DNA of 64,000 bases, taken from Chlorobiota bacterium (GTDB lineage: Bacteria > Bacteroidota > Ignavibacteria > Kapaibacteriales > NICIL-2). This document shows positions 231-2,409 of the stretch, piece after piece. Made by a program: the position numbers and the translations under genes. The stretch is taken from contig JAOAGY010000033.1 of NCBI GenBank assembly GCA_026415505.1, forward strand, positions 1 to 64,000, written 5' to 3'. The notes beneath the pieces were generated by a model. That model made no database searches and was not told the DNA's origin. It saw nothing but the letters and a program-made list of their open reading frames with translations. Each line of letters begins with the position of its first letter. Position 1 is the stretch's first letter.

Positions 231-1091
231 GTGACGATGCGCTCCTATTTCTACGCGCTCACCGCACGTGGAGAGTTGCTCCACGACGGTATCGCGATCG
301 AAGACGAACGCTTTCGAGACATGTTTTTCGCCAACCTTCGACCGAACGATACCGGCATCCATCCGGACTATCCCTACTGCTCGCCGTGCGGCGTCGAGAT
401 GAACTTTTTGCGACCGGAGGACACGCCGTATGTGTTCGATCGCTTCGATGGCGAGCGGCTGTTTTTCGCACCGAGCCTGAGCGTGCCATTCGACCCGGAA
501 TCGTTGGTATTCAGCGATGGTGTGTTGTACCATCGTGCACCGCACGGGCAGTGGGGGCGCATCGGTGCGGCGATTGCCGTATCGCTTGCCGATGCGATCG
601 AGCCGTGGGGCGATTGGTACCAGCTCGAATGGCACGGCGAGCGTCACGTCGTACCGCCCCGTGCGATGCCGGATCATCTTCGTTTGATTCGTCCCAAACG
701 CGGCAACTACTGCGCTGGTTGTGGACGCGACAATCCGATGAGCTTGCAACTGTCGGCGCTCTACGACGAGCGACAGCGCACTGCAGAAAGCTGGCTCACC
801 GTTCCGCAATACACGAGCGGTTCGCTCGGCATTATGCATGGCGGATTCATTGCGCTCCTGCTCGACGAAATCATGGGGAAGGTTTTGAGCGGTATGGGGA
901 TCAAAGCACCGACGCGACAGCTTCAGGTCGAATACTTGCGTCCTGTGCCGATCGGCCGGCGCGTTCACGTCAAAGCGTCGTACCGCGGTGGCGAAGATCG
1001 TGCCCATACGGTCGCAGGTTCGATCAGCGATGCCGAAAGCAATCGGCTGCTCGCACGCGGAGAAGCGGTGTTCGTTGTGCCGCGGTCGTAG
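231..1091 (+). CDS. Two-domain protein: UPF0598/DUF4505-like N-terminus fused to PaaI-type hotdog thioesterase
   Basis: 286 residues counted from the GTG at 231; ATG at 237 (third codon) is the alternative start. Residues 4-125 resemble the UPF0598 (human C8orf82, DUF4505) family: a YFY start, then FFANLRPN, YPYCSPCGVEMNFLR, a VPFDP step and LYH. The function of that family is unknown. Residues 158-286 look like a PaaI/YigI-type hotdog thioesterase, opening with C-A-G-C-G-R-D-N-P (Cys161, Cys164) and carrying I-M-H-G-G (203-205) and L-L-D-E (210-213), the usual active-site region. The substrate is probably an acyl-CoA, by family only. I do not know this fusion as a described architecture. No signal peptide, so cytoplasmic. 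Confidence 0.7.
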   Translation: MTMRSYFYALTARGELLHDGIAIEDERFRDMFFANLRPNDTGIHPDYPYCSPCGVEMNFLRPEDTPYVFDRFDGERLFFAPSLSVPFDPESLVFSDGVLYHRAPHGQWGRIGAAIAVSLADAIEPWGDWYQLEWHGERHVVPPRAMPDHLRLIRPKRGNYCAGCGRDNPMSLQLSALYDERQRTAESWLTVPQYTSGSLGIMHGGFIALLLDEIMGKVLSGMGIKAPTRQLQVEYLRPVPIGRRVHVKASYRGGEDRAHTVAGSISDAESNRLLARGEAVFVVPRS

Positions 1092-1164: not shown

Positions 1165-2409
1165 ATGGATCCGAAGCGTTGGTTGTGGTTCGTTCTGACG
1201 TCGGCGGCGATGCTGTTTGCCATCGATGCAATCGTGCTCGCAGCGTGGCAGCGCTTCGTCCGCCGTCGCCAGTGGAATCGCTGGCTCTATCGTGTGCCGT
1301 GGATACTCGCAGCGGTGTTTCTGGTCGTCTCGCCGTACGTGTCGTTCAAACGCATCAGTCCCAGCCAGCTCGAAGAAGGTATGTTCGTGCTTTTTGCTGC
1401 TTCGACGTTGTGGTATTTGCCGAAAATCCCCATCGCGGTCGTCGTGATCATCGCCAGTCTCGCTCGTGCCGTGCGAAAAGTTTTCGCGCGATCGCGTCAA
1501 TGGTTACGCCAGCGGAGCGCTCCCGTAGTGCCGTCGAACACCGACACTGGACGCCGCGAAGTACTCGGGACGATCGCATGGAGCAGTGCCGTTGTTCCGT
1601 TCGGCATCGTCGGCAAAGGCTTTTTCGACACCGACGATTTGACGATCTACGAAGAGGAAATCACGCTGCGTTCGTTGCCGCGTGCATTCGACGGCATTCG
1701 CATCGTGCAGATCAGCGATATTCACGCCGGTTCGTGGCGCTCGCCGCAGCCGTTCCGTCGCGCACGTGCGCTGATCGAACAGCTCAAGCCGGATGTGCTC
1801 GTTGTCACGGGCGATTTCGTCAACTTCGATCCGAAGGAACTCGAACTGATCCGCAGCGACTTGCAACGGCTCCGCGCCGATATGGGCGTGTTCGCATCGC
1901 TCGGCAATCACGACCACTACAACTCACCGCAGAATCACTCGCTCCTGCGATCGGTGATTTCGAACTGTGGTCTGACACTGCTGGTCAATGCGAACGCTGC
2001 TCTCCGAACGCACGGCGAGACGCTCTATATCGTCGGCACGGACAACACCGGCTTGGGACAAAATTTCGCGGACTTGCCGGCTGCGCTCGTCGGTGTCGAA
2101 CCAGGTGCTCCGACGATACTGCTGGCGCACGACCCGACGTTCTGGGACAAAGAAGTTCGCCGCAAAGCACCGATCGACCTCATGCTCAGCGGTCACACGC
2201 ACGGCGGGCAGGTGGGCATTCACTTTTTGGGCGTCGAATTGAGCGTTGCGCAGGTGGTGTACAAGCAGTGGGCAGGTCTCTATCGCGATGGGGAGCAGTA
2301 CCTCTACGTCAATCGCGGTTTGGGGACAGTCGGACCGCCTGTTCGCATCGGCATCCCGCCGGAAATCACCGTGCTGACGCTGCGATCGCCGAAACCGCAA
2401 TACGGCTAA
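1165..2409 (+). CDS. Membrane metallophosphoesterase (YkuE/YaeI family)
   Basis: 414 residues from ATG 1165. The N-terminus holds about three membrane segments (residues 7-28, 44-62, 72-100), then a short G-R-R-E-V-L-G stretch and a further hydrophobic stretch (134-150) that resembles a twin-arginine leader placed internally. The calcineurin-like phosphoesterase domain follows from residue 178: S-D-I-H (D185, H187), G-D-F (D217), G-N-H-D (247-250), a later A-H-D, and G-H-T-H-G-G. These are the five dinuclear metal motifs. Relatives in this family cleave UDP-diacylglucosamine or other phosphoesters at the membrane; the substrate here is unknown. It meets the M20 gene tail to tail with a 4-base overlap. 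Confidence 0.85.
   Translation: MDPKRWLWFVLTSAAMLFAIDAIVLAAWQRFVRRRQWNRWLYRVPWILAAVFLVVSPYVSFKRISPSQLEEGMFVLFAASTLWYLPKIPIAVVVIIASLARAVRKVFARSRQWLRQRSAPVVPSNTDTGRREVLGTIAWSSAVVPFGIVGKGFFDTDDLTIYEEEITLRSLPRAFDGIRIVQISDIHAGSWRSPQPFRRARALIEQLKPDVLVVTGDFVNFDPKELELIRSDLQRLRADMGVFASLGNHDHYNSPQNHSLLRSVISNCGLTLLVNANAALRTHGETLYIVGTDNTGLGQNFADLPAALVGVEPGAPTILLAHDPTFWDKEVRRKAPIDLMLSGHTHGGQVGIHFLGVELSVAQVVYKQWAGLYRDGEQYLYVNRGLGTVGPPVRIGIPPEITVLTLRSPKPQYG

Follow-up and report, generated by a model that had tools for sequence, protein, structure and literature searches.

The DUF4505/UPF0598 family, which includes human C8orf82, has been given as metazoan (PMC2954204), and C8orf82 itself is an uncharacterised protein of the mitochondrial matrix (PMC7066081). 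In a personal communication of Aravind and Grishin reported in 2010, DUF1285, UPF0598 and PB002487 were assigned to one superfamily (PMC2954204). For DUF1285 there are structures, and a nucleotide-based ligand was proposed to occupy a conserved cleft between the domains; the authors of that study saw no residue of the cleft that was strictly conserved and preferred a binding role to a catalytic one, described Nudix hydrolases encoded near most DUF1285 homologues, mainly in Proteobacteria, and noted a superficial PH-like similarity of the C-terminal domain (PMC2954208). There was no mention of DUF4505 by name in the open literature searched, and the literature found on UPF0598/C8orf82 contained no link to a thioesterase.

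A bacterial member of this family, encoded in one chain with a hotdog enzyme, was analyzed in a 64,000-nucleotide stretch of DNA from a Chlorobiota bacterium (referred to here as the window). The open reading frame at positions 231-1091 on the plus strand is real and open and encodes a single chain of 284-286 aa, and both of its domains scored above their Pfam cut-offs, bearing out the two-domain fusion that had been proposed in an initial annotation. Comparison with related proteins suggests that ATG 237 is more likely to be the start than the alternative GTG 231, because L002, a 72%-identical relative, and most of the other relatives start at the equivalent of MRSYFY. The gene would then span 237..1091 and encode 284 aa. 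Among named relatives, the nearest comes from a metagenome-assembled genome labelled Chlorobiota bacterium SKW269, whose copy is 72% identical.

Pfam, fold comparison and residue conservation support a DUF4505/UPF0598 domain with a DUF1285-like fold at residues 1-148 (237..680, plus strand). Residues 3-124 matched PF14956 over profile positions 9-151 of 177 with a score of 65.2 bits (E=8.4e-18), comfortably clearing the curated 27.3-bit cut-off; the absence of a significant DUF4505 match in the N-terminal half, which the initial annotation had named as grounds for refutation, was therefore not what was found. The window protein resembles C8orf82 in this match, and it differs from the human protein in being bacterial and in being fused to a hotdog enzyme. 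G12, D23, G95, Y98, R108 and G125 were invariant in all 28 of the proteins compared, and D62 was conserved in 27 of them. DUF4505 had no match on plasmids and none in viral contigs.

The AlphaFold model of the whole chain had a pLDDT of 93.7 and a pTM of 0.85, so the two-domain arrangement is confidently predicted, and the N-terminal half modelled alone had a pLDDT of 94.8 and a pTM of 0.87. When the DUF4505 model was compared to solved structures with Foldseek, the DUF1285 structures 2re3 and 2ra9 were the sole matches at E<0.001 (E 4e-6 to 2e-5, probability 1.0). As modelled, the DUF4505 half shares the DUF1285 superfamily fold, which confirms the superfamily link made in 2010. This likeness is one of fold and is visible by fold comparison only: PF06938 (DUF1285_N) matched neither the window protein, at E values up to 10, nor anything else in the genome, and the DUF4505 half had no match among PDB chain sequences. 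UPF0598, which the initial annotation described as having no known function, does have some structural context as a member of the DUF1285 fold superfamily (PMC2954204, and the Foldseek matches above).

The C-terminal half of the chain (690..1088, plus strand) is well supported, by Pfam, a PDB profile search and Foldseek, as a THEM4-like hotdog domain with predicted acyl-CoA thioesterase activity. Residues 200-250 matched 4HBT (PF03061) with 33.2 bits against a cut-off of 20.6 (E=6.7e-8). The best match of a profile of this half among solved structures was human THEM4, a mitochondrial protein (E=7.8e-18), followed by 2ov9, THEM5 and 2prx, and the Foldseek matches were 2ov9 and THEM4 with E about 1e-10. 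The active-site spacing of THEM4/PaaI-type enzymes was present, with an Asp 9 residues after the His of an HGG motif and a Thr 16 residues after the Asp. The H201-G202-G203 motif (837..845), the predicted catalytic acid D210 (864..866) and the predicted second active-site residue T226 (912..914), all on the plus strand, were invariant in 28 of 28 proteins and aligned with the HGG, Asp and Thr of THEM4, positions that we take to be the catalytic ones of THEM4-type hotdog enzymes. A CxxCG motif (711..725, plus strand) opens the hotdog half, ahead of the hotdog core; C159, C162 and G163 in it were also invariant in all 28 proteins, and a similar CxGCGRNN motif is found in 2prx. This segment may bind a metal, form a disulfide or be structural. 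Although THEM4 and THEM5 (4gah, 4ae8, 4ae7) are the closest solved sequences to this half, no DUF4505 domain was matched in them, and the bacterial CxxCG segment lies outside the THEM4 match.

The initial annotation had called this half a PaaI-like hotdog thioesterase. The hotdog assignment stands, with THEM4/THEM5 and 2ov9 as the nearest solved structures, but PaaI proper was rejected: the hydroxyphenylacetyl-CoA thioesterase equivalog (TIGR02286) belongs to the same hotdog superfamily, yet the window protein scored 21.3 bits against its cut-off of 118.9, and both NCBIfam PaaI/hotdog cut-offs were missed. There was no second copy of the thioesterase half in the genome. Four genes of the enoyl-CoA hydratase family do score above cut-off in this genome, which makes acyl-CoA substrates plausible.

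In an even sample of the phylum comprising 395 genomes, DUF4505 was found in 18, all of them within the order to which the window belongs. One of the 18 loci (L008) runs off the end of its contig. Each of the 17 that could be assessed encoded a DUF4505-hotdog protein of about 285-300 aa in a single frame, and no split or DUF4505-only copies were among them. Both DUF4505 and 4HBT matched in each of the 18 aligned relatives. Among 123 genomes from this order, a whole-chain profile identified a near-full-length fusion in about 46, spread over 7 families, and three more copies that were partial. Other genomes therefore do carry the fusion, as the initial annotation had asked, although in the phylum sample it was restricted to one order and was absent from several families. 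The location of the gene near the end of contig C33 might be taken as a sign that assembly or annotation had joined two separate genes (an assembly join was the other ground for refutation named in the initial annotation), but this explanation is refuted: wherever a DUF4505 locus of the order could be assessed, it had one open frame, and the common architecture recurs in about 46 independent genomes, including on megabase-scale contigs. Among the carriers are a genome assembled as one contig (G059) and a genome with the fusion on a 2.16-Mb contig (G416).

Both halves of the protein are under purifying selection, with dN of about 0.2 and dS of about 1.2-1.8 in each half between the window protein and L002. 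Across the 28 proteins, the DUF4505 half had a mean pairwise identity of 44% and the hotdog half one of 45%. The distance matrices of the two halves were correlated (r=0.61, a value reached in 0 of 5000 permutations). This pattern is consistent with a single fusion event, after which the two halves were inherited together.

Analysis of the genome context showed that the commonest conserved neighbour, at 13 of the 21 loci examined, was a YaeI/LpxG-like metallophosphoesterase whose N-terminus is probably membrane-bound, and which is encoded directly downstream of the fusion gene, in the window at 1165..2409 on the plus strand. The phosphoesterase gene does not adjoin the fusion gene in families f57, f58 and f7 and in some others. 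A D-aminoacyl-tRNA deacylase gene (dtd) was upstream of the fusion gene in f57, f58 and f7, and argS was upstream in family f3. The conserved neighbours (the metallophosphoesterase, argS, dtd, tsaD and msrB) gave no pointer to acyl-CoA, and neither acyl-CoA synthetase genes nor beta-oxidation genes were seen adjoining the fusion gene. The neighbourhood consists mostly of housekeeping genes, changes between families, and is for the most part uninformative about function. In three congeners (G043, G247 and G415; loci L071, L072 and L074), the phosphoesterase gene was kept, with about 80% identity, without an adjoining fusion gene, and two of them (G043 and G247) had, directly beside the phosphoesterase gene instead, the msrB-like gene that flanks the fusion gene in the window. 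These loci represent a clean loss or gain. Its absence from the equivalent site in three congeners makes the fusion gene accessory and dispensable within the genus.

The reading that we favour, with a probability of about 0.5, is that the protein is a two-domain acyl-CoA thioesterase in which DUF4505 binds a nucleotide-like ligand, either the CoA moiety or an effector. The hotdog half would hydrolyse an acyl-CoA thioester by means of the His-Gly-Gly motif, Asp210 and Thr226, and would probably do so as a homodimer, as in THEM4. The DUF4505 half, a predicted DUF1285-fold domain packed against the hotdog half, would most likely bind a nucleotide-type ligand, be it the CoA portion of the substrate or an effector, and would thereby position the substrate or regulate hydrolysis. 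A CoA-type ligand would fit, because some Nudix enzymes hydrolyse CoA. We infer this role for DUF4505 from its fusion to a promiscuous partner and from weak genome context; because hotdog domains occur in fusions with many partners, this one places only a loose constraint on the ligand. The initial annotation had treated the fusion as a 'Rosetta stone' clue that UPF0598 acts with acyl-CoA or a thioester. The conserved architecture supports this idea, which is plausible, but the link is unproven, since just one order was seen to have the fusion and hotdog domains are promiscuous partners.

It is also possible, though rather unlikely, that DUF4505 binds no small molecule and is a structural or docking domain that keeps the hotdog oligomer stable or brings the enzyme to a protein partner. 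The metallophosphoesterase, the steadiest neighbour and one with a probable membrane segment, is an example of such a partner, and the C-terminal domain of DUF1285, reported to be superficially PH-like, points in the same direction (PMC2954208). However, a ligand site is suggested by the invariant polar residues D23, Y98 and R108, by the nearly invariant D62 and by the conserved cleft reported for DUF1285, and the phosphoesterase is not an adjoining gene in every family. The invariant Asp, Tyr and Arg residues might instead be read as those of an enzyme acting on the substrate or product of the thioesterase, and fusions of consecutive steps are common. A bifunctional enzyme of this kind is improbable, since Foldseek found no similarity to any catalytic fold and the DUF1285 authors argued against catalysis (PMC2954208).

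Finally, two unrelated domains could have been joined once in an ancestor and inherited without functional consequence, in which case the fusion would be uninformative about UPF0598. Its restriction to one order and its absence from several families and from three congeners would agree with such a history, but a neutral fusion is quite improbable: the joined gene has been retained in 7 families with a mean identity of about 44%, the two halves are equally constrained, and none of the assessable loci of the phylum sample has a split or DUF4505-only copy.

A broader reading takes in the whole UPF0598/DUF4505 family, mitochondrial C8orf82 included: the domain might bind acyl-CoA or CoA and regulate hotdog thioesterases, acting in cis in these bacteria and, in mitochondria, in trans on an enzyme that resembles THEM4. 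This extension is speculative and we consider it unlikely. The stable bacterial fusion to a THEM4-like thioesterase does provide a concrete hypothesis for C8orf82, namely acyl-CoA/CoA binding and thioesterase control, which is testable on the bacterial protein and then on human C8orf82.

Among the loci with dtd followed by the fusion gene were L060 (10163-10621, within a few bases) and L062 (8531-9082), and the same order was seen at L059, L067 and L069. The phosphoesterase adjoining the fusion gene in the window was considered as a missing LpxG of lipid A synthesis and rejected; it fell below the LpxG cut-off, and LpxC and an LpxH-like gene are present elsewhere in the genome. The LpxH-like gene (G000:C40:30526-31206) scored 92 bits against the LpxH cut-off of 190. 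Together with LpxC, and with no LpxI found in the genome, this gene is the probable lipid A diphosphatase of the genome.
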